A stretch of 64,000 nucleotides of DNA from contig JAUXOL010000022.1 of the NCBI GenBank assembly GCA_030682375.1, positions 62,001-126,000 on the forward strand, read 5' to 3'. This document shows, piece after piece, positions 2,392 to 29,949 of the stretch. The notes under the pieces are model-generated. The model searched no databases, was not told the DNA's origin, and was given only the letters and a program-made list of their open reading frames with translations. Position numbers and translations under genes: made by a program. This DNA is from Gallionella sp. (GTDB lineage: Bacteria > Pseudomonadota > Gammaproteobacteria > Burkholderiales > Gallionellaceae). How positions within the stretch are numbered: position 1 is the first letter of the stretch; each line of letters starts with the position of its first letter.

Positions 2392-2407
2392 TGTACGCTA
2401 GCGAACA
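2392..2407. promoter_or_regulatory. Palindromic operator candidate TGTACG-CTAG-CGAACA between gspC and gspG
   Basis: Exact match to TGTNCG-N4-CGNACA; extended TATGTACGCTAGCGAACAGAG. Confidence 0.65.
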
Positions 2408-2467
2408 GAGTTCATGCCGATGAAACGGATAATCGCTGCACCGCCATGTCAAAAGACTTTCAGATCA

Positions 2468-2908
2468 ATGCGACACATCGAAACAACTAAGCGGCAACGC
2501 GGCTTTACCTTGCTAGAGGTGATGGTGGTCGTGGTGATTATCGGCATACTCGCGGCCATGGTCGTACCGAAAATCATCAGCCGTCCCGACGAGGCTAGAG
2601 TGATGGCCGCCAAGCAGGATATCGCCAGCCTGATGCAGGCGCTCAAGCTCTACCGGCTGGACAATCAGCGCTATCCCGTTACCGAGCAGGGATTGCAGGC
2701 GCTGGTCACGCGCCCGGCCACCACCCCGCTCCCGCTCAACTGGAAAATGGGCGGATATGTCGAACGCCTGCCGCAAGATCCCTGGGGCAACCCCTACCAA
2801 TACCTGAATCCCGGCGTGCATGGCGAGATCGACATCTTCAGCCTCGGCGCGGATGGCAGCCCGGGCGGCGAAGCCAATGACGCCGACATCGGCTCCTGGT
2901 CTCTCTAA
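2468..2908 (+). CDS. gspG: Type II secretion major pseudopilin GspG
   Basis: RGFTLLEVMVVVVIIGILAAMVVPKI prepilin motif and YPVTEQGLQALV...DPWGNPYQYLNPG signature. ORF opens at 2414; MRHIETTKRQRG start preferred. Confidence 0.95.
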   Translation: MRHIETTKRQRGFTLLEVMVVVVIIGILAAMVVPKIISRPDEARVMAAKQDIASLMQALKLYRLDNQRYPVTEQGLQALVTRPATTPLPLNWKMGGYVERLPQDPWGNPYQYLNPGVHGEIDIFSLGADGSPGGEANDADIGSWSL

Positions 2909-2924
2909 CACTCGCGCCTTCGCC

Positions 2925-3422
2925 ATGTCGAAACAGACCGGCTTCACGCTCATCGAAATGTTGGTCGCGTTGCTGATCATGGGGCTGCTGATCGGGCTGG
3001 TCAGCGTCATCGCCCAGCCGGACGACAAAGCGTTGCTGCGGGTCGAAGCCGAGAGGCTGGCGCAGTTGTTGGAGCTTGCCGCGACAGAATCCCGCATCAC
3101 CGGCAAACCTATAGCGTGGACATCGGACGGGTCGGATTACCGCTTCTGGAGGTTCGCCGAAAACCCCGGCTGGAGCGAGATCGCCAACGACGATTTTCTG
3201 CGCGCGCGCAGTCTGCCGCAGGGCATGAAGATATCGAACATGCGCACGGAGAACCTGCGCTCGCCCGCACCGATGCGCGTGGAATTCGACTCCTATAGCG
3301 GAGCTCCTTCCTTCAGTGTCGAGATATCCATCGGCGCCTCGCGCTACACGGTGGAGAACTCTCCGATCGGCGCCGTGCGCGTATTTACAGAAACAACGGA
3401 AACAAGCGATGAACGGATCTAG
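2925..3422 (+). CDS. gspH: Type II secretion pseudopilin GspH
   Basis: MSKQTGFTLIEMLVALLIMGLLIGLVS prepilin motif; position in gsp operon. Confidence 0.85.
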   Translation: MSKQTGFTLIEMLVALLIMGLLIGLVSVIAQPDDKALLRVEAERLAQLLELAATESRITGKPIAWTSDGSDYRFWRFAENPGWSEIANDDFLRARSLPQGMKISNMRTENLRSPAPMRVEFDSYSGAPSFSVEISIGASRYTVENSPIGAVRVFTETTETSDERI

Positions 3423-3801
3423 CGCCGAATACCAAGGCTTTACGCTGATCGAAGTGCTGGTCGCGCTTGCCATTATTTCCATCGCGCTGCTTGCCTCGCT
3501 GCGCATCGCGGGCGGAGGCGCCAACAGCGCGGGCGAATTGCGCGCACGCGTGCTGGCCGGCTGGGTCGCGGAAAACATTCTGGCGGAACAGCGCGCACGC
3601 GGCGTCTGGTTGCCGCTAGGCATGCAGCGCGGCATCGAGAGTCAGGGCGGCATCGCTTTCGTCTGGCGCGAGGAAGTGATCGACACGCCCAATAGCTCGT
3701 TTCGGCGCGTCGATATTCGGGTATACACGGCAAGCGACGAATCGCACACGCTCGCCCATCTGATCGGATTCGTCGGATATTCACCGGGCTCGATCAAATG
3801 A
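3409..3801 (+). CDS. gspI: Type II secretion pseudopilin GspI
   Basis: YQGFTLIEVLVALAIISIALLASLRI...ENILAEQRARG; overlaps gspH and gspJ. Confidence 0.9.
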   Translation: MNGSSAEYQGFTLIEVLVALAIISIALLASLRIAGGGANSAGELRARVLAGWVAENILAEQRARGVWLPLGMQRGIESQGGIAFVWREEVIDTPNSSFRRVDIRVYTASDESHTLAHLIGFVGYSPGSIK

Positions 3802-9853: not shown

Positions 9854-10798
9854 CTACGCGTCGGCGATGCAATAGCCGTTCTTGCCTTTGCGCTTGGCCT
9901 CATGCAAAGCCAAATCGGCACACTTCAACAGACTCTTGGCTTCCTTGCCATGCGTGGGGTAGATGCCGATGCCCGCGCTGATAGTTATGTTTACGCTGTG
10001 CCCTTGAATGTCATAGGGCTGCGACACCGCATGCATCACCTTGGATGCCGGCTTGTCCGCGCCCTCGGCATGACTTAACTCCCACAACAGGATCACGAAC
10101 TCATCGCCGCCCATGCGCGCCACGGTATCCTCCTGACGCACCGAAGCCGACATACGCTCGGCGACCATTTTCAGCAGCGCATCGCCCGCATCGTGCCCCA
10201 AGGTATCGTTCACCTGCTTGAATCCGTCCAGATCGAGATAGATTACCGCCATCAATCCGCGGCTCCTGTGCGCATGGGCGATGGCCGACGAGAACCGGTC
10301 CATCAACAGCCTTCGGTTCGGCAATCCGGTCAGCGCGTCGTGCAACGCTAGGGACGCCAACACCTTGTTGGCTTCCACGAGCTCGCTATACAGCAAGCGT
10401 ACTTCCAGCATGTTGTGGACGCGCGCCAGCACATCCGCCAGTTCGAATGGCTTGCTGATGAAATCCTTGGCGCCTGCTTTCAGTGCGCGCAGCTTGTAGT
10501 CCTGCTCGGCAGTGATCACTAGCACGGGTAGATAACCATGCGGTTCGATCTTCTGCAGGCCTTCCAGCACCTGAAACCCGTCCATGTCGGGCATATGTAG
10601 AGAAAGCAGGATCAGGTCGTATCGGTGTGTGCGGTGAAGTTCGCAGGCCTCTGCCGGATTCGTCGTGGACGAGACGGCGTCATAGCCGGCACCGCGCAGT
10701 ATCTGATCGAGCAGATCGACATTGGCTTCCAGCTCATCGACGATCAGAATTTTGCCGTGAAGGATGTTGGCCGGATCTTTCATCTGAAGATTCCCCAC
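9854..10798 (-). CDS. REC-GGDEF diguanylate cyclase with degenerate receiver
   Basis: GGDEF with RxxD I-site (RQEDTVARMGGDEF); REC phosphoacceptor Asp replaced by Ser (LILLSLHMPDMDG). Confidence 0.92.
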   Translation of the reverse strand: MGNLQMKDPANILHGKILIVDELEANVDLLDQILRGAGYDAVSSTTNPAEACELHRTHRYDLILLSLHMPDMDGFQVLEGLQKIEPHGYLPVLVITAEQDYKLRALKAGAKDFISKPFELADVLARVHNMLEVRLLYSELVEANKVLASLALHDALTGLPNRRLLMDRFSSAIAHAHRSRGLMAVIYLDLDGFKQVNDTLGHDAGDALLKMVAERMSASVRQEDTVARMGGDEFVILLWELSHAEGADKPASKVMHAVSQPYDIQGHSVNITISAGIGIYPTHGKEAKSLLKCADLALHEAKRKGKNGYCIADA

Positions 10799-10804
10799 CG
10801 CAGT

Positions 10805-11869
10805 TTATGTCGAGTACTCATCGAAGATATTGCAGAACATCGGGTGATTTTGCTCGAACGCGGCCAAAACGACCGGATCGAAATGTTCCGGACGGGTTCG
10901 TCCGTCGCCCTGGGTAATGATGCGCACGGCCGTCGGATGATCGAAGGCGGGTTTGTAGGGGCGCTTGCTCCGCAGCGCATCGTAGATATCGCAGATATTC
11001 ATGATGCGCGCAGACAGCGGAATAGCCTCGCCCTGCTTGCCGTTCGGATACCCTCCGCCATCCCAGCGCTCGTGGTGATTAAGCGCGATCTCCGCACCCA
11101 TGGTCAAATAGGGCGACTTGCTGTTGCCGAGAATTTCCGCGCCCATCGCGGCGTGTTTCTTCATGATCTCCCACTCGTCCGGCGTAAAGCCGCCCGGCTT
11201 GAGCAGGATATGGTCCGGCGTTCCGATCTTTCCGATATCGTGCATCGGGCTGGCAAAAAATATCCTGTCGATGAATACCTTATCCATACCCAGCATCCCT
11301 GCAAGTTCCCGGCTGTAATAACTGATGCGCTTCACGTGCGCGCCGGTGTCCTCATCCTTGTGCTCCGCCGCGCGCGTCATCGCGAATATGGTTTCCAGAT
11401 AATTTTGCTGCAGCTCGGCCGTCCTTTCGCTGACGCGCTGTTCCAGCACCTCGTTGTAAACGTGCAACTCCTTGTGCAACAGCCTCACCTCCAGCATGTT
11501 ATGTACGCGCGCCAGCACCTCGGCGAGCTCGAACGGCTTGCTGATGAAGTCTTTCGCTCCCGCTTCCAGCGCGCGCAGCTTGTGTTCCGGCTGGGCGGTG
11601 ATCACGATGACGGGAAGATAGTCTCCCGTTTCGATTTCCTTCAGACCTTCCATCACCTGGAACCCGTCCATGCCCGGCATTTGCAGGTCGAGCAGAATCA
11701 GGTCATAGCGGTTCTTGCGGTGCAGATCGCAAACCTTTCGCGAGTCCGTCTCCGATGTAACGGCGCCATATCCCGCAACATGCAGCATGCGATCAAGCAG
11801 ACGGACATTGGCTTCCATATCGTCGACGATCAGGATGCCTGCATTGAATATCGAGGATGGATCAAGCAT
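10805..11869 (-). CDS. REC-HD-GYP phosphodiesterase (RpfG-like response regulator)
   Basis: LILLDLQMPGMDG receiver; HDIGKIGTPD and HHERWDGGGYPNG HD-GYP motifs. ORF track extends to 11926; MLDPSS start preferred. Confidence 0.93.
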   Translation of the reverse strand: MLDPSSIFNAGILIVDDMEANVRLLDRMLHVAGYGAVTSETDSRKVCDLHRKNRYDLILLDLQMPGMDGFQVMEGLKEIETGDYLPVIVITAQPEHKLRALEAGAKDFISKPFELAEVLARVHNMLEVRLLHKELHVYNEVLEQRVSERTAELQQNYLETIFAMTRAAEHKDEDTGAHVKRISYYSRELAGMLGMDKVFIDRIFFASPMHDIGKIGTPDHILLKPGGFTPDEWEIMKKHAAMGAEILGNSKSPYLTMGAEIALNHHERWDGGGYPNGKQGEAIPLSARIMNICDIYDALRSKRPYKPAFDHPTAVRIITQGDGRTRPEHFDPVVLAAFEQNHPMFCNIFDEYST

Positions 11870-12410
11870 GGGAAGATCCCCCCTCGATTGCAGACCGGAC
11901 GTCGCAAGTTCCGTCGGTCTCGTCATGATGCCGAAGCATCAGGTTTCGGCCCGCCGCCGTTTCCCTAATCTTCTCTTCCAGCGATTTGATATAGCCCTGC
12001 ATTTCGAGGAGGAACATTCGGGCTTCCAGCATGTTGTGTATACGCGCCAGCAGCTCCGGCAAATCGAACGGCTTGCTGATGAAGTCCCGTGCGCCGGCCT
12101 GGAGCGCCTTCAATTTGTACTCCGGATGAGCGGTAATCGCGATGACCGGCAGAAGCCCGCCAGCCTCGATCTCCTTGAGCCTCTCCATCACCTGGAATCC
12201 GGAGAAATTCAAGCGCGGCATCTCGAGATCGAGCAGGATCAGATCGTAGCGATGCTTGCTATGCAGGTCGCAAGCCTTGTTCGAGTCGGTGGTGGACGAG
12301 ATGGAAACATAGCCGGCATCGCGCAGCATGGCGTCAAGCAAAGAAATATTGGCTACGCGATCATCCACAATCAGGATTTTCGCGTGCAGAATGTCGGTTG
12401 GACTGATCAT
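11862..12410 (-). CDS. Stand-alone receiver (REC) response regulator
   Basis: KILIVDDRVANISLLDAM...LILLDLEMP...GARDFISKPFDL; no output domain after a short helical tail. Confidence 0.88.
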   Translation of the reverse strand: MISPTDILHAKILIVDDRVANISLLDAMLRDAGYVSISSTTDSNKACDLHSKHRYDLILLDLEMPRLNFSGFQVMERLKEIEAGGLLPVIAITAHPEYKLKALQAGARDFISKPFDLPELLARIHNMLEARMFLLEMQGYIKSLEEKIRETAAGRNLMLRHHDETDGTCDVRSAIEGGSSHA

Positions 12411-15400
12411 GACGATTGCTCCTGTGTAGCCTTGTCCGACAAGCGATTCACAGATCCCAGCGTCGCATTCAACGCCTCCATGAACTCATCGACCTTGATC
12501 GGCTTGGTGATATATCGAAAGAAACCCGCCTTCAGCCCACGCTCTATATCGCGGGGCATCGCATTGGCACTGATGGCAATAACGGGAATGTGCGCGGTGA
12601 TCGGGTCTTCATGCAGTATCTTCATCGCATCGAAGCCGCTGATGCCGGGCAGATTGATATCCATCAGAATCACATCCGGCTGTGCTGTGCGCGCAATCTC
12701 GATGCCGTCATTTCCGTTCACGGCAGTCCGCAGACTCAGGTCGGGATGGCGCGCGATGATCTGTTCCACCAACCTCATGTTCGCCGGATTGTCTTCCACG
12801 TAAAGCAGGGTATGCGGGCGCACTTCGCGAGGCAGACTGAATTGAGTCGGCCCTGTTCCCTCCTCGCCCCCAACGAGTAGCGGCTCACCGACCGACATTA
12901 ACTCGAACCAGAAAACGCTTCCCGCCCCGACGACGCTCGCCACACCGATGGCTCCGCCCATCAGTTCGACCAAACGCTTCGCTACCACGAGGCCGATGCC
13001 GGTTCCCTCCTCGCTTCCCGCCTCTTGTCCGAGACGATTGAAAGGCTGGAACAGCTGCTGCAACTGCTCCGAAGGCAATCCGGCACCGCTGTCCTTGATG
13101 CTGATGCGTGTGCGTCCGGGTGCGCTCTCGCCGCAAGTCACCTCCACCGTTCCCTGCTTGACGTTGTATTTGATCGCATTGGACAGCAGGTTGATCAGCA
13201 CCTGTTTCAGCCGGGTTCTATCGGCACGAACGAACATGGGGATATCGAACTCCGGGAAGGTCAGCGTGATGCCGCGCTGTTGTGCCTGAGGTTCGATCAT
13301 GGACTGGCACTCGAGCAGGACTTCGGCCAGCGACACCGGCTCTTCCGACAAGGGAACCTGCCTGGATTCGACCTTGGCGAGATCGAGAATTTCGTTGATC
13401 AGCTTCAGCAGGTGCCATCCGGCCTGGAGTATCTGGGCGACGCCTTCCTTTTGAGACGGCGTTGGCGGCGGAGTGTCGGACTCCATCAGCTGAGCGAACC
13501 CCAGTATGGCATTCAGCGGACTGCGCAACTCGTGACTCATGCTGGACAGGAAATCCGATTTGGCGAGATTGGCTTTTTCCGCCACCGACTTGGCATTCTC
13601 CAGCTCGGCATTTTTTTCCTCCAGCACCTGATCCAGCAATTTGCGTTCGGAGACATCGCGCGCGGCGGCGAATACGCCCTGCAGCCGCCTGTCCCTGTCG
13701 TAAAGACTGGTCGCATTGAAGGACACCACCGTTTCCTTGCCGTCGCGAGCGCGCGCAGTGAGTTCATAATTGGTCAACTTCTTGCCGCTCAGCACCAATT
13801 CGATGCTTTTCTCGGCTCGTTCCGGATCGGTGAAATAATTCTTGAACGGCGCACCGATCAACTCGTCTCGCGTACATCCGGTGAGTGCCTCCATCTGTTT
13901 GTTGACGTCGTTGATGATGCCGGACAGGTCGGTGGTCATCAGCGCATCGATATTGGACTCGAACAATGAGCGCGTATAGAACTGATGATCGCGCAGGCGC
14001 TGGCTGAGCTGTTTCTGCTCCGCCTCTATCTGCTTGCGCGCGGTGTTGTCGGTGCCGATCAACAAATAGCCGATGATGTCGTTTTGCGCATCGCGCAGGG
14101 CAGTGACCGACACCACCGCGGGGAATCGGCTGCCGTCCTTGCGGATGTAAGTCAGCTCGTAGATATCCTCGATGCCGCGCGATGCCTTGAACACCAAGGC
14201 ATCGAATCCAGGCGTGATCGGCGTGCCGAGTTCTGCGCTCAAGGCTTCGGCACGCGCGATCACTTCCTGCGGATCGGAGATGTCCGCCGGGGTGATCTTG
14301 TTCATCACGTCGGCGGCCGTGTAGCCCAGCATGCGCTCCGCGCCAACATTGAAAATCTGGATCACGCCTTGGGCATCCGTGGCGATACTGGAAAAGTTGG
14401 CACTATTGAAGATCGCGCTCTGCAATGCGCCGGCCTTGAGCAACGCCTCCTCCGCCTGCTTGCGCGCGGTGTTGTCGGTGCCGATCAGCAGGTAACCGAT
14501 GATCGCATCCTGATCGTCGCGCAGCGCCGTCACCGAAAGAACGACCGGAATGCGACTGCCATCCTTGCGTATGGATGTCAGCTCATAGATATCCTCGATC
14601 CCGCGCTCCGCCTTGAACACCAGCGCCTCGAAACCCGGCGTGATCGTCGTGCCGAATTCGCTGCTCAACGCCTCGGCACGGGCAATCAATTCCTGCGGAT
14701 CGGAAATGTCCGCCGGGGTGATCTTGTTCATCACATCGGCGGCCGTGTAGCCCAGCATGCGCTCCGCACCGACGTTGAAAATCTGGATCACACCCTGTGC
14801 ATCCGTGGCGATACTGGAGAAATTCGCGCTGTTGAAAATCGCTTTCTGCAATGCACCCGCCTTGAGCAGCGCCTCTTCCGCCTGCTTGCGCGCGCTGTTA
14901 TCGGTGCCGATCAGCAGATAGCCGATGATCGCATCCTGATCGTCGCGCAGCGCCGTCACAGACACGACGGCCGGGAACCGGCTGCCGTCCTTGCGGATAT
15001 AGGTCAGCTCGTAAATATCCTCGATGCCGCGCGACGCCTTGAACACCAGTGCGTCGAAACCCGGCGTGATGGGTGTACCGAGTTCGATGCTGAGCTCCTT
15101 GGCGCGCGCGATCACTTCTTGCGGGTCCGAGATGTCCGCCGGGGTGACCTTGTTCATCACATCGGCGGCCGCGTAGCCCAACATGCGCTCCGCACCGACG
15201 TTGAAAATCTGGATAACCCCTTTGGCATCCGTGGCGATACTGGAAAAATTGGCGCTGTTGAAAATGGCGCTTTGCAAAGCCCCAGCTTTCAGCAGCTCCT
15301 CTTCCGCCTGTTTGCGCGCGCTATTGTCGGTGCCGATCAACAAGTAACCGATAATTGCATCTTGATCATCGCGCAGCGCCGTCACCGACACGACGGCCGG

Positions 15401-15820: not shown

Positions 15821-15931
15821 GACTTAAACCTTTGCTCAAATTACCCGAATGCGAATTGCAAGGCGGTCGCAACCCCATGTACAGGGCATTTTCAGCGTAG
15901 AGCCATCCTAGTGAGCGGCCTTCCGTTTATC

Positions 15932-15947
15932 CGTACGCCATCGCACA
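15932..15947. promoter_or_regulatory. Palindromic operator candidate CGTACG-CCAT-CGCACA upstream of the 4xPAS kinase operon
   Basis: One mismatch; reverse strand reads TATGTGCGATGGCGTACGGAT, oriented toward the kinase. Confidence 0.55.
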
Positions 15948-16081: not shown

Positions 16082-16087
16082 CGAAGA

Positions 16088-16933
16088 CTATTCCTGCGGT
16101 GTCTGTTTGGCGCGGATAGATTCGGTCACATCCTTGCCGATCCCGCGGTAGCCGGTAAAGCCGCCGGAAGAGTCGAACATCGGCTCTCCGCTCACCATCA
16201 GATATTGCGTAGCGCCGTCCGGCATGGTTCGGCTGTAGACGAAATCCAGGAATGGCCGCCGCGCCGTCATGTTGGCTTCCAGCGCCGCGCGTTCTGCCTT
16301 GTTCCATCGCGCCGGATGCGATTCCGGGGATTCTCCGATCAGGTTATCGACGGGGATGCCCAGCATCTCCATCACCGGGCCGTAAACCTTGGTGAAATTC
16401 CCTCGCTCATCCTGTTCCCAGTACCAATCGGATGCCAGCTCCGTCAAACGGCGGAAGCGCGCTTCGCTGGCCCTGAGCTCGTTCGTGCGCTCCAGTACTG
16501 CCTGTTCCAGCATCTGGTTGTAGCTGCGAAGCTCCTTGTACAACAAGCGCACTTCGAGCATGTTGTGGATGCGCGTCTTGATTTCCACCATGTCGAACGG
16601 CTTGGCGACGAAGTCCTTGGCACCGGCGGCGAGCGCGCGCAACTTGTGGTCGGGCTGGGCCGTGATCACGATCACCGGAAGATAGTCGTCGGTTTCGATT
16701 TCCTTCAGGCACTCCATGACCTGGAAGCCGTCCATGCCCGGCATCAAAAGATCGAGCAGGATCAGGTCGTAGCGGTTGTCGCGATGCAGCTCGCAGACTA
16801 CGTGCGGGTCCATCGTGCTGGTGATGTGCCGATAGCCGAATTCCTGCAGCATTTCATCCAGCAGCTGAACGTTGGATGACTGATCGTCGACGATCAGAAT
16901 ATTGGCATTAAGAATTTGCTGATCGTTAATCAT
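16088..16933 (-). CDS. REC-PAS response regulator
   Basis: NILIVDDQSSNVQLLDEM...LILLDLLMPGMDG...; C-terminal PAS (RRLTELASDWYWEQDERGNFTKVYGPV). Confidence 0.88.
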   Translation of the reverse strand: MINDQQILNANILIVDDQSSNVQLLDEMLQEFGYRHITSTMDPHVVCELHRDNRYDLILLDLLMPGMDGFQVMECLKEIETDDYLPVIVITAQPDHKLRALAAGAKDFVAKPFDMVEIKTRIHNMLEVRLLYKELRSYNQMLEQAVLERTNELRASEARFRRLTELASDWYWEQDERGNFTKVYGPVMEMLGIPVDNLIGESPESHPARWNKAERAALEANMTARRPFLDFVYSRTMPDGATQYLMVSGEPMFDSSGGFTGYRGIGKDVTESIRAKQTPQE

Positions 16934-18699
16934 GTCGTTTGTCCGGTTTCATTTTCGTTGGCGTGCCTCAGTTCGGAAAACATCAGCGCCTCATCGAGCA
17001 CATTAATCAGATCGTTGATCTTGATGGGTTTCGCCAGATACTCGAAGAATCCCGCATCGAGGCCGATCGAGATATCGCCGGGTATGGCGTTGGCGGTAAT
17101 GGCGATGACGGGGATATATCTCGTCGCCTTATCTTCGCGCAGAATTTTCAAGACCTCTATTCCGCTGATATCGGGCAGATTGATGTCCAGCAGGATCACA
17201 TCCGGAAGCTCGGCACGCGCCAGCTCGATGCCGGGTTTCCCGGCGGAAACGCTCGATATGCGCAGATGCGGGAATTCCTGGACGAATTGCTCTATCAGCA
17301 TCAGGCTGGCCGGATCGTCCTCGATGCAGAGCACGGTGCGCTGCGCCGCATTGAGCAGGTTTTGCAGCGCCTGCCCAGGCGGCTTGTCGTCTGCGATAGC
17401 GGCAGGCGGCGCTACGCTGCGGGACAATTCGATCCAGAATTCGCTGCCGACCCCCATGGTGCTTTCCACGCCGATCTCCCCGCCCATCAGTTCGACCAGT
17501 TGTTTGGCCAGCACCAGGCCGATGCCGGTACCGGTCTCGATGCCGCTCTCCTGTCCGAGGCGATTGAATGGCTGGAACAGCTGCGCCAAATGCACCTGCG
17601 ACAATCCTATGCCGCTATCCTTGACGCTGATGCGTACGCGTTCCGTGCTGGCGCTGCACCGCACCTCGATCGCCCCCTGCGGACGGTTGTATTTAAGCGC
17701 ATTGGACAACAGATTGATCAGAATCTGCTTGGTGCGTACCCGGTCGGCATTGACCAGCAGACTCTCGTCGAACGGAAGAAAGGTGATCCGGATGCCGCGC
17801 TGCTGCGCCTGCGCCTCGAACATGGCCTCGCACTTGCGCATGATGTAGGCCAACGACACCGGCTCTTGCACCAACGACAACCTGCCGGATTCGATCGTAG
17901 CCAGATCCAGGATCTCGTTGATCAGTTCGAGCAGATACCAGCCTGCCTCGGTGATCTTGCCGAGCCTACCCCGCTGAATATCGGTTTGCGGCACCGAACT
18001 GCTTTCCATCAACTGCGCGAAACCGAGGATGGAGTTCAGCGGGGTGCGCAATTCATGGCTCATATTGGAAAGGAAAATCGATTTCGCACGATTGGCATTT
18101 TCCGCTGCCAGACTGACGCGCTCCAGTTCGGCGTTCTTGTCCTGCAGCAGCCTGTCCATGCGTTTTCGCTCGCTGATGTCGGTCAGCGTGACGCGCAACG
18201 TCTGGGTTGCGGCATCGACCTCGCTGAACAGCCCATCCAGATGGGCATCGAAGCAGCTGCCATCGCTGCGCTGCAGCATCAGTTCGCAAACCTGCGGACC
18301 GCCGGGTTGCATGGCATCGATGAAATACTGCTGCCAGAGATTGCGATCCGCCGGCAAGACCATATGTGCAAAACGGCGTTGCAACAACCTTTTTCGCTCT
18401 TCCCCCAGCAATTCGGCACCGGTCAGGTTGATGGAAGCGATTTTCGCCTCGCTCGACAGCGTCAGATAACCGACCGGCGCGAATTCGTAGAGGTCCACAT
18501 AGCGGTCGCGGCTTTCCTCCAGCAACTCCTGAGTGCGGCGCAATTCCTCGTTCTGCATCTCCAATTCGACCTGATGCACCTGAAGATCGTGCAGGAGCTT
18601 CTGGACCGTATGCGGAATAGCCTCCGTGGCCGGCGAACAAACGAGCCGCTTCTCGGCTTCATCGCGCAGCGTATCTTGCTGACTGGAGTTAGGGCTCAT
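16930..18699 (-). CDS. PAS hybrid sensor histidine kinase with C-terminal REC
   Basis: SHELRTPLNSILGFAQLMESS, GTGIGLVLAKQLVELMGGEIGVES, DVILLDINLPDISG. Confidence 0.93.
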   Translation of the reverse strand: MSPNSSQQDTLRDEAEKRLVCSPATEAIPHTVQKLLHDLQVHQVELEMQNEELRRTQELLEESRDRYVDLYEFAPVGYLTLSSEAKIASINLTGAELLGEERKRLLQRRFAHMVLPADRNLWQQYFIDAMQPGGPQVCELMLQRSDGSCFDAHLDGLFSEVDAATQTLRVTLTDISERKRMDRLLQDKNAELERVSLAAENANRAKSIFLSNMSHELRTPLNSILGFAQLMESSSVPQTDIQRGRLGKITEAGWYLLELINEILDLATIESGRLSLVQEPVSLAYIMRKCEAMFEAQAQQRGIRITFLPFDESLLVNADRVRTKQILINLLSNALKYNRPQGAIEVRCSASTERVRISVKDSGIGLSQVHLAQLFQPFNRLGQESGIETGTGIGLVLAKQLVELMGGEIGVESTMGVGSEFWIELSRSVAPPAAIADDKPPGQALQNLLNAAQRTVLCIEDDPASLMLIEQFVQEFPHLRISSVSAGKPGIELARAELPDVILLDINLPDISGIEVLKILREDKATRYIPVIAITANAIPGDISIGLDAGFFEYLAKPIKINDLINVLDEALMFSELRHANENETGQTT

Positions 18700-18715: not shown

Positions 18716-21700
18716 CTATGAAACCGTTTCTATCGCAAGCAGGATCATCTGGGTATCGCCGTTGTGATCGACGATACGGCGTGCATTCAGCAACATCTTG
18801 TGATGGCCGATAACGGGAAATTCGTGCTCGACGACGAAGTCATCGAAACTCTGGCTGTTCGGCAGGATGTTTTCCAGCAGTTCGCGCAAGGCGGGGATGT
18901 CCCACTGGTGGTTGCCCAATTCGTAGATAGAGCGCCCCTGAGTCGCTTCGCGCGTGACCTGGAAATCCCGGTAAAAAGAGCGGCTGGCGGAGACGATCTC
19001 CATCTTGTCGTTCAATACGACGAGCGGTTCGCGCGCCGTATTCACGATGCCTTCCGCCAGTGTGCGCGCCTGCCGCTCCGCCGCCTCGGCGACGACACGC
19101 GGGGTGATATCGACGAAGGTCAGCACCACCCCGTCGATCACGTTGTCCAGCGTGCGATAAGGCTGGATGCGCGTCAGATAACAACTGCCGCCCGGCGTGC
19201 GCACCTCGCGCTCGCGCGGCACTAGGCTATCCAGCACGGCCTGCGCATCGACCAGCAGATCGTCGGTGTCTATGTTCGACTTGATGTCGTTCAATGCCCT
19301 GCCCACGTCCGAGGCGACCAGACGGTAGACCTGTGCAGCCTCGCGGGTATAGCGTTTGATATTGAGATGCTCGTCGAGAAAGATGGTGCCGACATTGATG
19401 TTGTCGAGCAGGTTCTTCATATCGTTCTGCATCCCGGCGAGCAGTTCTATCTTGGCCTGCAATTCGGCATTGACGGTGATCAGCTCTTCGTTGACGGATT
19501 GCAGCTCCTCCTTGGAGGTTTCCAGCTCCTCGTTGGTCGACTGCAGCTCCTCGTTGGTCGACTGCAGTTCCTCGTTGGTCGATTTCAGCTCTTCGTTGGA
19601 TGCCTGCTGTTCTTCGATGGTGGCCTGCAGATTTTCCCGGGTGTAGATCAATTCGCGCTCGAGTTCGTCGATGCGCGCAACACCGCGCGTCCCGGACATG
19701 GACGTGCGCTTGCCGGACGCAGCTTTGTCGGGCGCAGACTTGCCGGATACCGTATCCGGCAAATCCTGAAAACTCACCAGCAACAAACCCTCGGCGCTCT
19801 CCGTTGCGGGAAGCGGACGCACGCTGAAGCTGGCCCTATGAAAGTCGCCGTTGGTCCTGACCGACAGTTCGCGGCCCAAAGTAGGCTCGCCCTGAGCCGC
19901 GAGATGAATGGCCGTGCGCAGCTCCAGCTGTAGGCCCTCGCGCGCCATATCGACGACGTTGAGCGTGGCCTGTCCCGGTGCCGGGCGCAGGTAACGGCCG
20001 GTCTCGCCATGCACATAGAGGATATCGCCATTCAGGCCGGTCACCACCGAGGCAGGCGCATAGGACTGCAACAGAAAACGCTTGGCCACTTCGGCGAAGT
20101 TGGTCTCTCTGGTTTTACTCATGATTTCCTCCGGTGCCTTGGTGTTTCTTTCCGAGGCCCAGGTCAACGTGCTGGTCAGCGCAGAACGCGTTGCGGCGGC
20201 GGAATGGGTGGCTCGGTAGAACTTCCACTTGCGATTGAGCGGCACGAACAGATCGGTGTGATTGCCGATACTCTCCGAGGGCGACAGAAACATCACACCG
20301 CCTGGCTTGAGCGCATATTGAAATGCCGACATCAGGCGGTCTTGCAGTTCCGGCTCCAGATAGATCATCAGATTGCGGCAGCTGAGCAGATCGAGCCGGG
20401 TGAAGGGCGGGTCCTTGATGACGTTCTGGGTCGCGAACACCACCATCTCGCGTATCTCTTTCTTTACCCGATAGCCGGCATCGGTCTGGACGAAGAAACG
20501 GGCCAGCCGTTCGGGCGTGACATCCTGTGCGATGTTGGGCGGATAGATGCCCGCGCGCGCGGTGGCGATGGCGTCGTCGTCGAGATCGGTGGCGTATATC
20601 TGCACCCGGAACTCGGGCCGGGTGTCATCCATCAATTCGCGCAGCAGAATAGCGATGGAATAGGCCTCCTCGCCGCTGGCACAACCCGGCACCCAGGCAC
20701 GGAACACATAGCCATCCGGCTTCGCCGTCAGCAGCTGCGGCAGGATGTCGTTGCGCAGCGCCTTGAAAGCCTCCGCATCGCGGAAGAAACTGGTGACATT
20801 GATCAACAGCTCCTTGAACAGCACCTGCACCTCGGCCGGATGCTCCTTCAGATAGCGGGAATAGACCTCGGTGTCCTCGATATCGTGCTGCAACATGCGC
20901 CGCTCGATGCGACGGGATATGGTGCTCTTCTTGTACAGCGAAAAGTCATGGCCGGTGGCGCTACGCAGTTGCAGCAGGATGCGATTGATACCGCTCGCCG
21001 CCGCTGGCGTGGCAAGCGACGATGGCGGATGCGGTAAATCAACCGCGTGGCGCGCCCTGGCCGACAACGCCTGATGCATGCCTTCCGGCGACAGCACATG
21101 GGTGGCGTAACCGGCGCCGATGGCGCTTGCCGGCATACCGTCGTATTTCGCACTGGCCGGCTCTTGCACCAGCGTTATGCCGCCGGCGCCCAGGATGGCG
21201 CGCAAGCCCAGGGTTCCGTCGGTACCGGTGCCGGATAGAATAATGCCTATGGCCAGCTCGCCCTGATCTTCGGCCAACGAGCGCAGGAAGGCATCGATGG
21301 GCATGCGCTGCCCGCGCGGCTGCTCCGGCACGCTGAGTTGCAGCATGCCGTGAAAGATCGCCATATCGCGATTGGGTGGAATCACATACACGCAGTTCGG
21401 CGCGACCCGAACCTGATCCTGAGCCTCGATCACCGGCATGGCGGTACTGCGCTGCAGGATTTCGGTGAGCATGCTGGCGTGGTCCGGGTCGAGATGCGAC
21501 ACCAGCACGAAAGCCATGCCGCTATCGGCCGGGAGATCGCGGAAGAACAATTCGAAGGCTTCCAGCCCTCCGGCAGATGCGCCGATGCCGACGATGGGAA
21601 AACCGACCGAAGCGGGCGCGGCGGATTCGGCCGAGCCGGGAATTTTGCCGATCGCAGCGGCAGCCTGCTCCGCGCTCTGCCCCTGCGCTCTCCGCTTATT

Positions 21701-21838
21701 TTTAGTCTTGTCTGTCTTGATAACCACGGTAATCCTTAATATGCAAAATCCGCTGCCGTTCGCATTCCGTCCAGCCCCCGTCTCAGCCTCGTATTTTACG
21801 GGCATCGAAGCAATAGCGAAGCACCGATCTTGCCACAA
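18716..21838 (-). CDS. CheB-CheR-PAS fusion (methylesterase/methyltransferase); true start probably downstream, near 21733 (GTG)
   Basis: FPIVGIGASAGGLEAFELFFRDLP (CheB); ATGHDFSLYKKSTISRRIERRM ... VPGCASGEEAYSIAILL (CheR); (S)TNEEL(Q) coiled coil; PAS at C-terminus. Confidence 0.92.
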   Translation of the reverse strand: MWQDRCFAIASMPVKYEAETGAGRNANGSGFCILRITVVIKTDKTKNKRRAQGQSAEQAAAAIGKIPGSAESAAPASVGFPIVGIGASAGGLEAFELFFRDLPADSGMAFVLVSHLDPDHASMLTEILQRSTAMPVIEAQDQVRVAPNCVYVIPPNRDMAIFHGMLQLSVPEQPRGQRMPIDAFLRSLAEDQGELAIGIILSGTGTDGTLGLRAILGAGGITLVQEPASAKYDGMPASAIGAGYATHVLSPEGMHQALSARARHAVDLPHPPSSLATPAAASGINRILLQLRSATGHDFSLYKKSTISRRIERRMLQHDIEDTEVYSRYLKEHPAEVQVLFKELLINVTSFFRDAEAFKALRNDILPQLLTAKPDGYVFRAWVPGCASGEEAYSIAILLRELMDDTRPEFRVQIYATDLDDDAIATARAGIYPPNIAQDVTPERLARFFVQTDAGYRVKKEIREMVVFATQNVIKDPPFTRLDLLSCRNLMIYLEPELQDRLMSAFQYALKPGGVMFLSPSESIGNHTDLFVPLNRKWKFYRATHSAAATRSALTSTLTWASERNTKAPEEIMSKTRETNFAEVAKRFLLQSYAPASVVTGLNGDILYVHGETGRYLRPAPGQATLNVVDMAREGLQLELRTAIHLAAQGEPTLGRELSVRTNGDFHRASFSVRPLPATESAEGLLLVSFQDLPDTVSGKSAPDKAASGKRTSMSGTRGVARIDELERELIYTRENLQATIEEQQASNEELKSTNEELQSTNEELQSTNEELETSKEELQSVNEELITVNAELQAKIELLAGMQNDMKNLLDNINVGTIFLDEHLNIKRYTREAAQVYRLVASDVGRALNDIKSNIDTDDLLVDAQAVLDSLVPREREVRTPGGSCYLTRIQPYRTLDNVIDGVVLTFVDITPRVVAEAAERQARTLAEGIVNTAREPLVVLNDKMEIVSASRSFYRDFQVTREATQGRSIYELGNHQWDIPALRELLENILPNSQSFDDFVVEHEFPVIGHHKMLLNARRIVDHNGDTQMILLAIETVS

Positions 21839-21844: not shown

Positions 21845-22645
21845 TCATTTATTCCGGGCTTGGCCGGTGCAGCTTGACTGCATATTGCCGGACAAACTGC
21901 CGACCGTGGGCGCCTCGCATAGCAAACGCTCGAATTCATTCTTGACGACCGCATAGCATTCGCAAGCACGCGACTCCAATCCGTTCCTGTCGATGACCGA
22001 AATATGCCCGCGGCGGTAACTGATCAATCCCGCGCGCTGCAAGTTTCCGGCGGCTTCCGTGATGCCCTCGCGTCGTACGCCCAGCATGCCGGCGATCAAC
22101 TCCTGGGTCATTGTCAGGTCATTCGAGGACAAGCGATCCAGCGTCAGCAACAGCCAGCGACATAATTGCTGCTCCACCGAGTGATAGCGATTGCAGGCAG
22201 CGGTTTGCGATATCTGCGTCATCAGCGCCTGGGTGTAGCGCAGCAGCAAATTGCGCAATTCTCCGGCACAAGGCCCCTCGGTACGATTGAATTCCTCCAT
22301 CAACCACCGCTCGGGCAAACGGTAGCCGCAGCCTGCGGTCTGCACGGTGGCGCGGTTGGGCATGGTATTGCCGCCCATGAACAGCGCAATGCCGAGTACG
22401 CCCTCATTGCCCACCCCCGCGATTTCGGCGGATGCCCCATTCTCCATGACATAGTGCAACGACAGGATGGCAGTGGTTGGAAAGTAGAGGTGTTGCAATC
22501 GCCCGCCGGACTCGTGGAGGACATCGCCTAGCGACATCGAGACCAGGGCCAAATGAGGAGCCAGTACCTCAAGCACTTCGGCGTGCAAAGCCCCGAGCAG
22601 GCGGTTCTGGTTAGGCGTCTGCGATGAAGGAATAATAGTGACCAT
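21845..22645 (-). CDS. Crp/Fnr-family transcriptional regulator (paralog 1)
   Basis: cNMP-binding-like barrel plus HTH LIAGMLGVRREGITEAAGNLQRAGLISYRRGHI; ATG at 22645 (ORF track starts at TTG 22651). Confidence 0.9.
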   Translation of the reverse strand: MVTIIPSSQTPNQNRLLGALHAEVLEVLAPHLALVSMSLGDVLHESGGRLQHLYFPTTAILSLHYVMENGASAEIAGVGNEGVLGIALFMGGNTMPNRATVQTAGCGYRLPERWLMEEFNRTEGPCAGELRNLLLRYTQALMTQISQTAACNRYHSVEQQLCRWLLLTLDRLSSNDLTMTQELIAGMLGVRREGITEAAGNLQRAGLISYRRGHISVIDRNGLESRACECYAVVKNEFERLLCEAPTVGSLSGNMQSSCTGQARNK

Positions 22646-22763
22646 TTTCAAGATTCCATGCGCTCCGACGCGGGGGTGGATTCGATAAAAACAGCAGGGC
22701 GGACATGGCCGAACATCGTTTGAGACTACATCGCGTTTTGTTATAACACGTTACTTGGAAGTA

Positions 22764-22779
22764 TGTACGGCAGCGAACA
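22764..22779. promoter_or_regulatory. Palindromic operator candidate TGTACG-GCAG-CGAACA
   Basis: Exact TGTNCG-N4-CGNACA match upstream of Crp/Fnr paralog 1; paired with 22788..22803. Confidence 0.65.
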
Positions 22780-22787
22780 AACCCGTA

Positions 22788-22803
22788 TGTTCGGTAACGC
22801 ACA
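22788..22803. promoter_or_regulatory. Palindromic operator candidate TGTTCG-GTAA-CGCACA
   Basis: Exact motif match, 24 bp centre-to-centre from the previous site. Confidence 0.65.
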
Positions 22804-22827
22804 GATTCCGAACCGGCAATGCAGGCG

Positions 22828-23535
22828 CTAGCCTCGCGCAACGTTATGCATGCCCCTGACGATCTGATAACACTGACAAGCCGCCGCTTCCAGCCCATCA
22901 TCGTCGAGTATGGTGATTTCACCGCGGTTATAGCTGATCAGGTTGCGCTGGCGCAGCGTACCGGCGGCCTTGGTAACGCCAACCCGCCGCACTCCCAGCA
23001 TATTGGCGAGCAGTTCCTGCGTCAGATGGAATCGGTTCGATCGCAAGCGATCGCGCGTCATCAGCAACCATCGAGCAAGGCGGGCTTCGATCAGGTGAAA
23101 TCGATTGCATGCGGCGGTTTGTGTCGTTTGTATCATCAGCTCGTAGATGTACCAGTACACCTCTCGCCGCAGCGGCATGCTGCGCTGAAATTCCTTATGG
23201 AAGTCCGCGGCACTCATGCGCAAGGCCTCGCCCGCCACCTGCACCACGGTACCTACCGGGGAGGCGTTCACCCCGAGCGCGAGGGGAGTGCCGAGCATGC
23301 CCTCGCGGCCGACCAGGCCGACTTCCAGTGCCTGATGGCCTTCTGCCTGTACCAGCAAGGAAACCAGCACATCGCTGGGAAAGTACACCTGAGTGATCGG
23401 CTCCCCCGGATGGTAGAGTTCCTCGCCAAAGCTCAACGCAACCTGTTCGAGGCGAGGCCGCAGCAATTGATACTCCTTGTCTGGCAAGGCTGCCAGCAGG
23501 CTGTTTGCAACAGGAACTTGATCTGCAACTTGCAT
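22828..23535 (-). CDS. Crp/Fnr-family transcriptional regulator (paralog 2)
   Basis: Barrel plus HTH LLANMLGVRRVGVTKAAGTLRQRNLISYNRGEI; clear paralog of the neighbouring gene, shared ACxCY motif near C-terminus. Confidence 0.92.
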   Translation of the reverse strand: MQVADQVPVANSLLAALPDKEYQLLRPRLEQVALSFGEELYHPGEPITQVYFPSDVLVSLLVQAEGHQALEVGLVGREGMLGTPLALGVNASPVGTVVQVAGEALRMSAADFHKEFQRSMPLRREVYWYIYELMIQTTQTAACNRFHLIEARLARWLLMTRDRLRSNRFHLTQELLANMLGVRRVGVTKAAGTLRQRNLISYNRGEITILDDDGLEAAACQCYQIVRGMHNVARG

Positions 23536-24472: not shown

Positions 24473-24483
24473 GATGCGCGCGG

Positions 24484-25166: not shown

Positions 25167-26072
25167 CTAGCGCCCAACGATATTGCCGTTGCTGTCGGAG
25201 AGAATGATCTCTACGCGCCGGTTCATTTGGCGACCGGCTGCCGTGTCATTGCCTGCAACAGGGTATGCCTCACCATAACCGCGCGTCGTGATGCGGTCGC
25301 TGGCTATCCCTTTATCGATCAGAGCCATCCGCACGGCGCTGGCGCGACGATCGGAGAGGCCCTGATTGAAAGTGTCGCTACCGGTGCTGTCGGTGTGACC
25401 CTCAACCAGCACTTTTTGCTTGGGATACTGCTTGAGGAAGTCGGCCAGCTTTTGCACGTTGTGGATACCGCCGGACTTGAGTTGCGCCTTGCCGGTATTG
25501 AACAGCACGTCGCCCAGCGTGATCACCAGACCGCGTTCCGTCTTCTTGGCGTTCAGTTCCTTTAGCTGCATCTCCTGTTTGGCGATGAGCTCCTGGTCGC
25601 GTTCCGCATTGGCGCTGGCGGCCGCCAGTTCTGCAGCCTGCTGATCGGTGGTTTCCTGCGCAATCGCCACCTGTCGCTTGGCCGCATCGGCTTCGGCCGT
25701 TCTCGCTTCGAGTCGAACTTCGGTGCGCTTCGCTCCGGCATTGGTGACCGCCAGTTCAGCCGTTTTACGGCTGGCGGTTGCCTGCGCAATACCAGCTTGC
25801 TGATTGGCCATGTAGGCCAGATGATTGACCGTATCGGTGCCCTGCCCCTTGCTGAAGGCATCATCCGCCTTGGTCAGCGTGTCACCTGCCTCTTTCAATT
25901 CCAGCGCAGCCATACTGACGACCTGCGGGTTGGCACGTGCACTGTTGTAGCTTTCATGCGCCGCATTAAGCGCCGCATTTTGTGGCGCAGACGCGGTGCC
26001 GCAGGCAGACAGAACCGAGACGGCGATCAGAGCCAACGGCAGATATAGATTTTTTTTCATGATGAACTCCAT
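25167..26072 (-). CDS. OmpA-family lipoprotein with N-terminal DUF4398-like region
   Basis: Lipobox VLSACG; C-terminal KQKVLVEGHTDSTGSDTFNQGLSDRRASAVRMALIDKGI...NRRVEIIL. Confidence 0.92.
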   Translation of the reverse strand: MEFIMKKNLYLPLALIAVSVLSACGTASAPQNAALNAAHESYNSARANPQVVSMAALELKEAGDTLTKADDAFSKGQGTDTVNHLAYMANQQAGIAQATASRKTAELAVTNAGAKRTEVRLEARTAEADAAKRQVAIAQETTDQQAAELAAASANAERDQELIAKQEMQLKELNAKKTERGLVITLGDVLFNTGKAQLKSGGIHNVQKLADFLKQYPKQKVLVEGHTDSTGSDTFNQGLSDRRASAVRMALIDKGIASDRITTRGYGEAYPVAGNDTAAGRQMNRRVEIILSDSNGNIVGR

Positions 26073-26078
26073 TGATGA

Positions 26079-26477
26079 TTATTGGGCTTTACGATCAAGT
26101 TCTTTGCGCAGCACGCGATTGTCTTCCTGCAAGGCGTCCGCAGCTTTTTTCGCCTTGGCAGCGCGTGCTGTCGTCTCGGCCAGCTTTGCATCGACCAGCG
26201 CTTCTTCTGCCAGCAGTTTGGCTCGCGCATAATTCTTTTCGCCCATGGCGCGCTCGGCCCAATCCATTTTTTCCATCGCGGACTTGAGCTGCAACGGCGC
26301 AAACTCATTGCCGCCCGCGCTGCTTGCGTTGTTTACCGCAGCCCTGGCAACTGCCATTTGCTCAGTGGGTGCGGGAGCGGAGGGCGTGCTTGCGCAACCC
26401 GCCACAAAGATTGCAGCAGCGACGGCGATGCCGATCCTGCTTGCCCGAAACGACTGGGTGAGATTCTGGGTTTTCAT
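26079..26477 (-). CDS. DUF4398-type lipoprotein
   Basis: Lipobox FVAGCAST; VARAAVNNASSAGGNEFAPLQLKSAMEKMDWAERAM. Confidence 0.8.
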   Translation of the reverse strand: MKTQNLTQSFRASRIGIAVAAAIFVAGCASTPSAPAPTEQMAVARAAVNNASSAGGNEFAPLQLKSAMEKMDWAERAMGEKNYARAKLLAEEALVDAKLAETTARAAKAKKAADALQEDNRVLRKELDRKAQ

Positions 26478-26650
26478 TTTTAGTCATCCTTTGAGTTAAA
26501 TGCCGAACACAACCGCGGCTATAAATGATCATTGAAACGATGTTCATTTCAACCAACAACAATCGAACTGCAATCCGGATACTTTTTCTTGCGCTCTATC
26601 CATTTCAAGAACTGCACAGGGGGATTAAATCCCCATTCGCCGATGTGCTC

Positions 26651-26666
26651 CGTGCGCAAGCGAACA
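26651..26666. promoter_or_regulatory. Palindromic operator candidate CGTGCG-CAAG-CGAACA
   Basis: One mismatch to TGTNCG-N4-CGNACA; upstream of the DUF4398/OmpA genes; reverse strand reads TATGTTCGCTTGCGCACGGAG. Confidence 0.55.
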
Positions 26667-26670
26667 TATC

Positions 26671-27464: not shown

Positions 27465-27570
27465 TTTTATAGTCTCCGGCGTTGATGTAACGATCAGCCA
27501 TCGGGAGCAAAAATCATTGACGAAATACGCTCTTGGCTCACGAATAGTCACGCGTTACGCACATATCTGC

Positions 27571-27586
27571 TGTGCGATGGCGCACA
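27571..27586. promoter_or_regulatory. Palindromic operator candidate TGTGCG-ATGG-CGCACA
   Basis: Exact, fully symmetric arms; upstream of the glycine-zipper gene; additional half-site CGCACA at 27558..27563. Confidence 0.65.
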
Positions 27587-27677
27587 TAGACTGCGTCAAG
27601 CGCATTCCGCTTGCGTCATTCCGGCGGCATGGCTTCCGCATGATTTTTCGCCATGTCCGGCACGATAATTTTTCATA

Positions 27678-27693
27678 TGTACGCTATCGCACC
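27678..27693. promoter_or_regulatory. Palindromic operator candidate TGTACG-CTAT-CGCACC
   Basis: One mismatch; oriented TATGTACG... toward the ice-binding-like gene 1. Confidence 0.55.
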
Positions 27694-27891
27694 GAGAATC
27701 AAGAGCAAAAACAGGATAAAGACACGTCGCTCAAGCTTTGGGGATTGATAGCTCCTGTTGAGCACAGGCTGTACCGCACCTGATCGCTCGGCGCATGGCA
27801 TTTCTACCGGCGAAGCTGATGCCCCACTGCGATGGCCAGTTACGATCGAGTATCCCTAAACACCTCGGGAATAGACATAAAGGAGAATGAC

Positions 27892-29736
27892 ATGAACATA
27901 TTCACAGGAATTACCAGTCCACTAACGCGCGCCATTCCATTACTGCTGCTCGCGCTGATGGCAGGATGCGGCGCGGGCCCCGGCAGCGTAGCCACCGTGG
28001 GCGACACCACGCCCCCCAGCGCAAGTTCCACCGTACCTGCGGATGGGACTACAGGCATAGCGATCAACGCCAATGTCACCCACACCTTTAGCGAAGCGAT
28101 GGACCCGGCAACCATTTGCGGTCCGTCAGGGCTGACGGCGGCATGTCCGGCAGCGACCTTCACCTTGATGCAAGGTGCCACAGCCGTTCCAGGCGCGGTG
28201 ACTTACGTGGGCACAACGGCGATTTTCAATCCGACCGCCAACCTTGCTCCCGGCCTGCCCTACACGGCCACGATCACAACCGGCGCCAAGGATCTGGCCG
28301 GCAATGCATTGGCAAGCAACAACGTCTGGACGTTTACCACCGGCGCAGCAGTCGATGCCACCGCACCCACGGTGATTTCCACCATTCCGGCGAATGCATC
28401 CACTGGCGCGGCACTAGGCGGGAACGTCGCCGTTACTTTTAGCGAGGCGATGGACCCGACAACCATTTGTGGCTCGGCAGGCCTGACGGCGGCATGCCCT
28501 GCCGCGACCTTTACCCTGAGGCAGGGCATCACGGACGTTGCAGGCGCGGTGACCTACGTGGGCTCTACCGCAACCTTCAATCCGACCAGCGCACTTGCAG
28601 CCAGCACCGTCTATACAGCCACGATTACCACCGGAGCCATGGATCTGGCAGGCAACCCGCTGGCCGTCAACAAGACATGGACATTTACCACCGGGACAGT
28701 GCCGGACACTACTGCGCCTACCGTGAGTTCAACCATCCCGTTGAATGCGGCCATCGGCGTGGCCACCAATTCAAACATCAACGCCACCTTTAACGAGGCT
28801 ATGGATCCCGCCACGATCACCACCGTTACCATGACCCTGAAGCAAGGGGCGACGGCTGTCACCGGCGCGGTGACCTACCTGGGCACTACCGCGACTTTCA
28901 ATCCAGCCGCCAATCTGGCAGCCGGCACCGTCTATACAGCCACGGTTTCCACTGGGGTCAAGGATATGGCCGGCAATGCATTGGCAGCCCTTAAAACCTG
29001 GAGCTTTACCACGGCCGCGACACCTGCCGCAGGCCCCGCACCCGTCATCCTCGGAACTGCAGGCAATTATGCAATTCTGGGAGAGACGCTGATCTCGACC
29101 ACGCTCACGGCGGGAACTGCCGTGACGGGAGATATTGGCATCAGCCCTGCTGCTGCAACATTCATCCAGGGATTTTCGTTGACGCTGGATCCATCCGGCT
29201 GCTTTTCGACGCCGACTCCATCAACACTGGTAACCGGAAGACTCTACGCAGCCGACTACAACACCGGCGGATGTCCGACACCGGCCAATCTGACCACGGC
29301 TATTGGTGACATGATGATTGCATACACCGATGCCGCAGGGCGAACGACGCCTGATTTCACCGAGCTGGGCACCGGCCTGATCGGCGGAATGACACTTGCC
29401 CCAGGCCTGTATAAGTGGGGGACGGGAGTCACGATAAATTCGGACATCACGCTCAATGGCGGCGCCAACGATGTCTGGATATTCCAGATAGCCGGAGACC
29501 TCACCATGGCAAACGCCACCAGCATGTTGCTGACAGGCGGCGCACTACCCAAGAATATCTTCTGGCAGGTGGGCGGCGGCACCGGTGTTGCCATTGGAAC
29601 CACAGCGCATTTCGAGGGCGTGATACTGGCCACGAAAGCGATCACCCTGAATACCGGCGCAACGGGAAACGGCAGATTGCTGGCACAGACTGCCGTCACG
29701 CTGGATAGCAATGCAATTACGCAGCCTGCCCCATAA
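27892..29736 (+). CDS. Lipoprotein with three Ig-like (Big_5-type) repeats and C-terminal ice-binding-like (DUF3494-type) domain
   Basis: Lipobox LMAGCG; DTTPPSASSTVPADGTTGIA...FSEAMDP repeats; AILGETLISTTLTAGTAVTGDIGISPAAATFIQGF...LAPGLYKW...NDVWIFQIAGDLTMANATSMLLTGGALPKNIFWQVGGG. Confidence 0.9.
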   Translation: MNIFTGITSPLTRAIPLLLLALMAGCGAGPGSVATVGDTTPPSASSTVPADGTTGIAINANVTHTFSEAMDPATICGPSGLTAACPAATFTLMQGATAVPGAVTYVGTTAIFNPTANLAPGLPYTATITTGAKDLAGNALASNNVWTFTTGAAVDATAPTVISTIPANASTGAALGGNVAVTFSEAMDPTTICGSAGLTAACPAATFTLRQGITDVAGAVTYVGSTATFNPTSALAASTVYTATITTGAMDLAGNPLAVNKTWTFTTGTVPDTTAPTVSSTIPLNAAIGVATNSNINATFNEAMDPATITTVTMTLKQGATAVTGAVTYLGTTATFNPAANLAAGTVYTATVSTGVKDMAGNALAALKTWSFTTAATPAAGPAPVILGTAGNYAILGETLISTTLTAGTAVTGDIGISPAAATFIQGFSLTLDPSGCFSTPTPSTLVTGRLYAADYNTGGCPTPANLTTAIGDMMIAYTDAAGRTTPDFTELGTGLIGGMTLAPGLYKWGTGVTINSDITLNGGANDVWIFQIAGDLTMANATSMLLTGGALPKNIFWQVGGGTGVAIGTTAHFEGVILATKAITLNTGATGNGRLLAQTAVTLDSNAITQPAP

Positions 29737-29766
29737 AACCGGCGACGCCTGATGCAATGTCGCTCC

Positions 29767-29794
29767 CCAAAGGCCGTCGCGAGACGGCCTTTGG
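29767..29794 (+). terminator. Rho-independent-type hairpin after ice-binding-like gene 1
   Basis: CCAAAGGCCGTC-gcga-GACGGCCTTTGG perfect 12-bp stem. Confidence 0.75.
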
Positions 29795-29933
29795 CATGGC
29801 GCGGCCCCGCCGACTCGGGAACGGCCAGCCTAATCCCCTCCCTGCCCCAGACATAAGCAAAGGTGCTTTCCCTGTCGGCAATCTCCATATCAACGATTGC
29901 TGCCAATCTCATTTTCCCGCTCCGCCCTCCTTA

Positions 29934-29949
29934 TGTGCGCAAACGCACA
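29934..29949. promoter_or_regulatory. Palindromic operator candidate TGTGCG-CAAA-CGCACA
   Basis: Exact, fully symmetric arms; TATGTGCG orientation toward ice-binding-like gene 2. Confidence 0.65.

Follow-up and report, generated by a model that had tools for sequence, protein, structure and literature searches.

A question raised by the present locus is which protein reads a palindrome that recurs between its genes. The window analysed here, a 64,000-nucleotide stretch of a Gallionella sp. contig (JAUXOL010000022.1), harbours eight copies of the element TGTNCG-N4-CGNACA, together with two tandem genes for Crp/Fnr-type regulators, crpA and crpB. As judged from sequence, CrpB, a little-studied Crp/Fnr-type activator encoded among the copies, very probably docks on DNA at this palindrome. 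We also consider it highly likely, taken jointly, that the palindrome is the CrpB operator and that CrpB acts as a class II activator of its own gene, of kinases and of envelope-stress and surface genes.

The initial annotation of this DNA had listed the eight copies, five exact and three with one mismatch, all of which are present, lie outside the accepted genes and extend to TATGT on one side. Its chance estimate of 0.06 exact copies is close to the 0.08 expected from dinucleotide-preserving shuffles, none of which (0 of 100) reaches five, and five exact copies against such an expectation cannot be chance. When up to one mismatch is allowed, the window contains 10 matches versus 2.67 expected from shuffles of the same kind; taken alone, the one-mismatch class is weak, and two further matches of this class (29272 and 44986) fall below the matrix threshold. 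The three imperfect copies originally listed (15932, 26651 and 27678) are set apart from noise by a conservation test, in which a matrix derived from CrpB relatives scores them at 15.0-15.4 nats. The proposed rule that the TATGT side faces upstream stands at six of seven loci, with the Crp/Fnr gene as the exception, but it is blurred at site 2392, which sits between the divergent gspC and gspG genes with a -10-like hexamer on both sides.

The conservation test was based on 80 loci of beta- and gammaproteobacteria encoding CrpB relatives (62-78% identical). An unsupervised expectation-maximization search for a symmetric 20-mer, started from random seeds in the 320 base pairs (bp) upstream of the 80 genes and with the window left out, converged repeatedly on TMTGTGCGCTAGCGCACAKA, with a log-likelihood of 312 versus 44-47 for shuffled sequence, and around 43% of the genes carry this motif in that interval. 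In the window, the resulting matrix recovers all eight sites (13.8-19.9 nats), and no other position scores above 7 nats. Within the 80 CrpB neighbourhoods (1.24 Mb), 228 sites score at least 9 nats, about 35 of them being training sites, versus 2 with the reversed matrix, and the loci outside the training give 56 sites versus 2 in the control. Most of the 228 sites (191, or 84%) are intergenic, in DNA that is only 17% intergenic according to home-made gene calls. The motif obtained de novo is a two-fold palindrome with a 16-bp core and Crp-like half-site spacing, and although symmetry was imposed in the search, both half-sites are visible in the unsymmetrised counts of 118 sites, which supports the Crp/Fnr-type dimer geometry proposed in the initial annotation. 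The test named there as able to refute a candidate regulon has now been run: the motif, as defined by the matrix, is strongly biased to intergenic DNA and is conserved in front of both CrpB orthologues and homologues of other targets, in support of such a regulon.

Another line of evidence comes from the position of the sites relative to promoters. In 112 sites oriented by their downstream gene, a -10-like xAxxxT hexamer is found exactly 21 bp after the 16-bp core in 69 cases, versus a mean of 6.6 at other distances (p ~1e-55), and the excess falls on the gene side of the site. Loci outside the training, oriented by site asymmetry alone, show the hexamer at 21 bp in 31 of 48 cases versus 2.5. 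The hexamers at this distance in the window and its genome are TAACCT, TAGGAT, TTTAAT, GACTAT, GATAAA, GACAGT, CATGAT, GATACT, GAGAAT and TACCCT. A 21-bp gap places the site centre at -41.5, as counted from starts deduced from the -10, and this is the class II position in CRP-dependent promoters. A residual -35 element accounts for the TATGT...ACAGA asymmetry of the site: the two bases that follow the palindrome, G and A, occupy -33/-32, where TTGACA has its GA, with 17 bp separating them from the -10. A sequence model of 46 positions that takes in the -10 (R1) recovers the window sites again, plus a few beyond the window, with weak E-values because the spacer is unconserved. A match to this promoter model outside the window maps to G000:C5:330921-330962 (16.1 bits).

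The bare 16-bp form of the palindrome is not specific genome-wide. Nine exact copies exist elsewhere in the genome, most of them within long open reading frames (ORFs) and with low matrix scores (seven at 4.3-8.9 nats), and one, C14:50717, lies upstream of a CheB-like gene. Another exact copy, C9:21924 (G000:C9:21923-21941; L102:1023), has a score of 15.3 nats; it falls within the beginning of a flgJ-like flagellar ORF and may be either chance or an internal promoter. The bare pattern was discarded as a genome-wide marker, being somewhat enriched even in genomes without CrpB (404 versus 280 in the control), and was replaced by a stricter 19-letter pattern for counts across genomes. The genuine element spans some 20 bp and is completed by a -10 at a fixed distance.

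With the strict pattern, 150 genomes of the window's order were scanned, fully symmetric sites being counted once per strand. The 38 genomes with a close CrpB contain 177 strict matches (8 in the reversed control), whereas the 103 genomes without any CrpB relative contain 35 (28 in the control). A genome of the same genus that has neither Crp gene, G115, shows one strict match. A different case is G090, where eight CrpB-family paralogues and 19 strict matches suggest an expanded CrpB network. In G015, a genome without CrpB, four near-identical matches at multiples of ~60 bp (C1:474132-476670) look like a repetitive gene and not an operator array.

The CrpB protein itself has the architecture of the Crp/Fnr superfamily, composed of an N-terminal cyclic-nucleotide-like beta-roll, a long dimer helix and a C-terminal Crp-type helix-turn-helix. 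Pfam HTH_Crp_2 matches it with 52.7 bits, over the cut-off, and its AF2 (AlphaFold2) model (predicted local distance difference test, pLDDT, 82) shows a Crp fold, with Foldseek E-values down to 3.6e-13 against CRP, GlxR, NtcA and FNR; the best solved matches are mycobacterial CRP, GlxR, NtcA and FNR, at 16-20% identity. Among 44 CrpB proteins, G191-E195 (except for near-invariant positions) and T198 are invariant, as are the cysteines C153, C230 and C232, and a reading of the CrpB sequence shows no FNR-like N-terminal cysteine cluster. The Pfam cNMP_binding match is weak (23.5 bits, below the cut-off of 27.5), which makes cyclic AMP (cAMP) doubtful as the ligand. In a comparison with E. coli CRP, hhalign paired only the helix-turn-helix: the CrpB helix aligns with CRP 179-185, with GVRREGITE placed against GCSRETVGR, so that R180 and E181 are kept and R185 is replaced by E. 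The kept arginine is predicted to read the G in TGT, and the replaced residue to read the CG step that is new here.

Several observations weigh against CrpB being the activator that acts at these sites. About 57% of the 80 CrpB genes lack a recognised site in the 320 bp upstream, some of which may be paralogues, operon members or genes with weak sites. Strict matches are absent from six of the genomes that encode a close CrpB, and a few of the 103 CrpB-less genomes hold 2-5. The Mann-Whitney p-value for the difference in strict-match number between both groups (p = 2e-15) overstates independence, given that the genomes are related. The crpB sites of the window deviate from the 21-bp geometry, with candidate hexamers at 18 and 22 bp, and therefore the effect of CrpB on its own gene may be negative or mixed in this case: a pair of sites spaced 24 bp apart might serve for both activation and repression, and site 3 could overlap the promoter set by site 4. 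Lastly, the sites, their conservation, the co-occurrence with CrpB, the promoter geometry and the target families are computed, and binding and activation by CrpB are inferred.

Other readers of the element have to be weighed as well. The tandem paralogue CrpA, acting alone or with CrpB, belongs to the same superfamily and adjoins crpB, and crpA genes in relatives (L103-L132) also have upstream sites. In the genomes examined, however, CrpA-type genes generally accompany CrpB-type genes, whereas CrpB without CrpA is common and the motif is kept there (10 matches in G103, six in G036 and six in G113); with CrpA present in only ~6 of the 80 site-rich neighbourhoods and carrying a different recognition helix (RRVGVTKA), its role as the reader is unlikely. 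Within the CrpB circuit, CrpA seems to be a target and may act as a modulator, and CrpB, not CrpA, is the likely regulator, a step beyond the initial annotation. A slightly less likely alternative is that CrpB is mainly a repressor blocking the -35 region, which the sites do overlap, the nearer crpB site being able to cover the crpB promoter; yet repressor sites would need no fixed register, and the exact -41.5 centre, weak -10 and degenerate -35 form a class II activator layout.

The vicinity of sensor kinases and receiver proteins, and a -10 distance as fixed as that of a bipartite promoter, would suit a kinase-linked DNA-binding response regulator or an alternative sigma factor. Such a reader is very unlikely, as the element, a palindrome of two-fold symmetry with the 16-bp spacing of Crp sites, follows CrpB across the order, the -10 resembles the housekeeping TAxxxT, and a conserved DNA-binding response regulator linked to the sites did not come to light, though no systematic search was made. 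Palindromes may also form hairpins, and exact 16-mers beyond the window are often intragenic, which speaks for terminators, mobile repeats or chance palindromes. These readings are rejected, their probability being negligible in view of the strict -10 distance on the side of the downstream gene, the unrelated flanks, the conservation across families and the near-zero reversed control.

With CrpB as the activator, a CrpB dimer would dock at TATGTNCG-N4-CGNACA-GA (read toward the gene), centred at -41.5, and recruit the housekeeping RNA polymerase in class II fashion. The downstream half-site would merge into a degenerate -35 (G-33, A-32), from which a 17-bp spacer leads to a weak -10. CrpB would switch on its own gene in many species and the adjoining multi-PAS sensor kinases, as well as BON/OsmY-like, OsmB-like, CsbD, DUF883/ElaB-like, DUF4398 and OmpA genes; in the window, it would also switch on the type II secretion genes and two ice-binding-like surface proteins. 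The activity of CrpB would be set by the kinases and by its ligand. The genes found downstream of sites in the relatives include crpB itself (29), multi-PAS kinases (~20), BON/OsmY-like (14-15), CsbD (8), DUF4398 (7), OmpA (4), DUF883 (4), porins (3), glycine-zipper lipoproteins (3) and ice-binding-like proteins (2), and this list is an envelope-stress and surface set.

The window features are collected in the table below. Sites 3 and 4 are located between crpA and crpB, on the upstream side of crpB, which is probably co-transcribed with the CheB-CheR-PAS fusion gene. Homologues of the multi-PAS hybrid kinase occur in 65 of the 80 CrpB neighbourhoods, 33 of them on the same strand and at most 1 kb downstream of crpB. 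Beyond the window, further sites lie in front of a CheY-like gene of the type II secretion region and of genes for a membrane sensor protein, a formylglycine-generating-enzyme-like protein and a CheB-like protein, as identified by sequence reading. Type II secretion genes and ice-binding-like proteins share the site both in the window (1794-7765 and 27832-32782) and in another Gallionella contig (L024:5558-9170), which hints at co-regulation of a secreted cargo and its secretion system.

Table. Palindrome sites and associated genes in the window (distances counted from the 16-bp core).
Feature	Position	Strand	Description
Site 1	2390..2409	.	Between divergent gspC (-) and gspG (+), type II secretion cluster; TAACCT at 21 bp toward gspC, GATAAT at 20 bp toward gspG; 19.9 nats
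Receiver and diguanylate-cyclase-like ORF	9854..10798		By sequence reading
Signalling genes downstream of crpB	9854..18699	-	Hybrid kinases, receiver-PAS, further receiver proteins; domains of the last three ORFs from sequence reading only
Multi-PAS hybrid histidine kinase	12407..15820	-
Site 2	15930..15949	-	Upstream of multi-PAS hybrid histidine kinase; -10 TAGGAT at 21 bp; 15.0 nats
CheB-CheR-PAS fusion	18716..21838	-	Directly downstream of crpB, 6 bp gap
crpB	21845..22651	-	Crp/Fnr-type regulator, proposed DNA-binding activator; recognition helix GVRREGITEAAG
Site 3	22762..22781	.	Upstream of crpB, nearer copy; TATAAC at 18 bp toward crpB; 15.6 nats
Site 4	22786..22805	.	Upstream of crpB, farther copy; -10-like CATACT at 22 bp toward crpB; 18.9 nats
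crpA	22828..23535	-	Tandem paralogue, 44% identical to CrpB; recognition helix GVRRVGVTKAAG
DUF4398 lipoprotein and OmpA/DUF4398 protein genes	25167..26477	-
Site 5	26649..26668	-	Upstream of DUF4398 lipoprotein and OmpA-DUF4398 genes; TTTAAT at 21 bp; 15.1 nats
Site 6	27569..27588	-	Upstream of OsmB-like lipoprotein (match below curated cut-off); -10 GACTAT at 21 bp; 13.8 nats
Site 7	27676..27695	+	Upstream of Big_5/ice-binding-like surface protein gene; GATAAA at 21 bp; 15.4 nats
Big_5 and ice-binding-like protein 1	27832..29736	+
Site 8	29932..29951	+	Upstream of second Big_5/ice-binding-like gene; GACAGT at 21 bp; 16.7 nats
Big_5 and ice-binding-like protein 2	30161..32782	+

A last question to be considered is how far this system is new. 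The family and the geometry are already known, and the DNA specificity, the regulon and the regulator appear undescribed in the open-access literature searched, where no study of a CrpB-type regulator was found by regulator, motif or target. A TGTGCG string in one article is a primer and not this motif, and the motif of that article is classified there as an FNR site (PMC6446978). In dozens of related bacteria, the same site, usually at the same promoter distance, precedes genes for envelope stress, surface proteins and sensors, which provides a DNA code, a promoter architecture and a target list for a Crp/Fnr group spanning Gallionella, Methylobacter, Massilia and Undibacterium. One regulator is tied in this way to multi-PAS kinases and to the orphan families of envelope stress (BON, CsbD, DUF883, DUF4398), and therefore the role of these kinases and families, as well as the signal, becomes directly testable. 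We lean, by a modest degree, towards the broader proposal that, within the Crp/Fnr superfamily, CrpB is the founding member of an undescribed subfamily of global activators that has a DNA code of its own and a signal other than cAMP. In many beta- and gammaproteobacteria, CrpB would then control a conserved programme of envelope stress and surface functions that amplifies itself and is wired to multi-PAS phosphorelays.

Among the known members of the superfamily, FNR and DNR have in common with CrpB the fold and the dimer-site geometry, and Aliivibrio fischeri FNR is among the best structural matches, but the palindrome differs from the TTGAT-N4-ATCAA site, in agreement with the initial annotation, and CrpB lacks the N-terminal Fe-S cysteines of FNR. 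NtcA, whose site is GTA-N8-TAC, is likewise related by superfamily and by a profile match to its solved structures, and CrpA shows a weak NCBIfam match to it (23 bits versus a cut-off of 245); it differs from CrpB in its recognition helix and in its role in cyanobacterial nitrogen control. GlxR and mycobacterial CRP, the best structural matches of the CrpB model (~18% identity), are cAMP receptors reading TGTGA-type sites. Bcam1349/BerA and Clp, which are Crp-like as well, regulate surface and biofilm genes in response to cyclic diguanylate (c-di-GMP) and not to cAMP; for CrpB, only a nearby diguanylate-cyclase-like gene suggests this ligand. The closest parallel in promoter layout is that of the E. 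coli CRP class II promoters, such as galP1, where a Crp fold meets a 16-bp TGT...ACA palindrome centred at -41.5 and overlapping a degenerate -35, as at the CrpB sites. As the initial annotation had pointed out, the classical CRP site is a different one, with TGTGA-N6-TCACA in place of TGTNCG-N4-CGNACA, that is, a TGT-G-A half-site where the putative CrpB operator has TGT-N-C-G.

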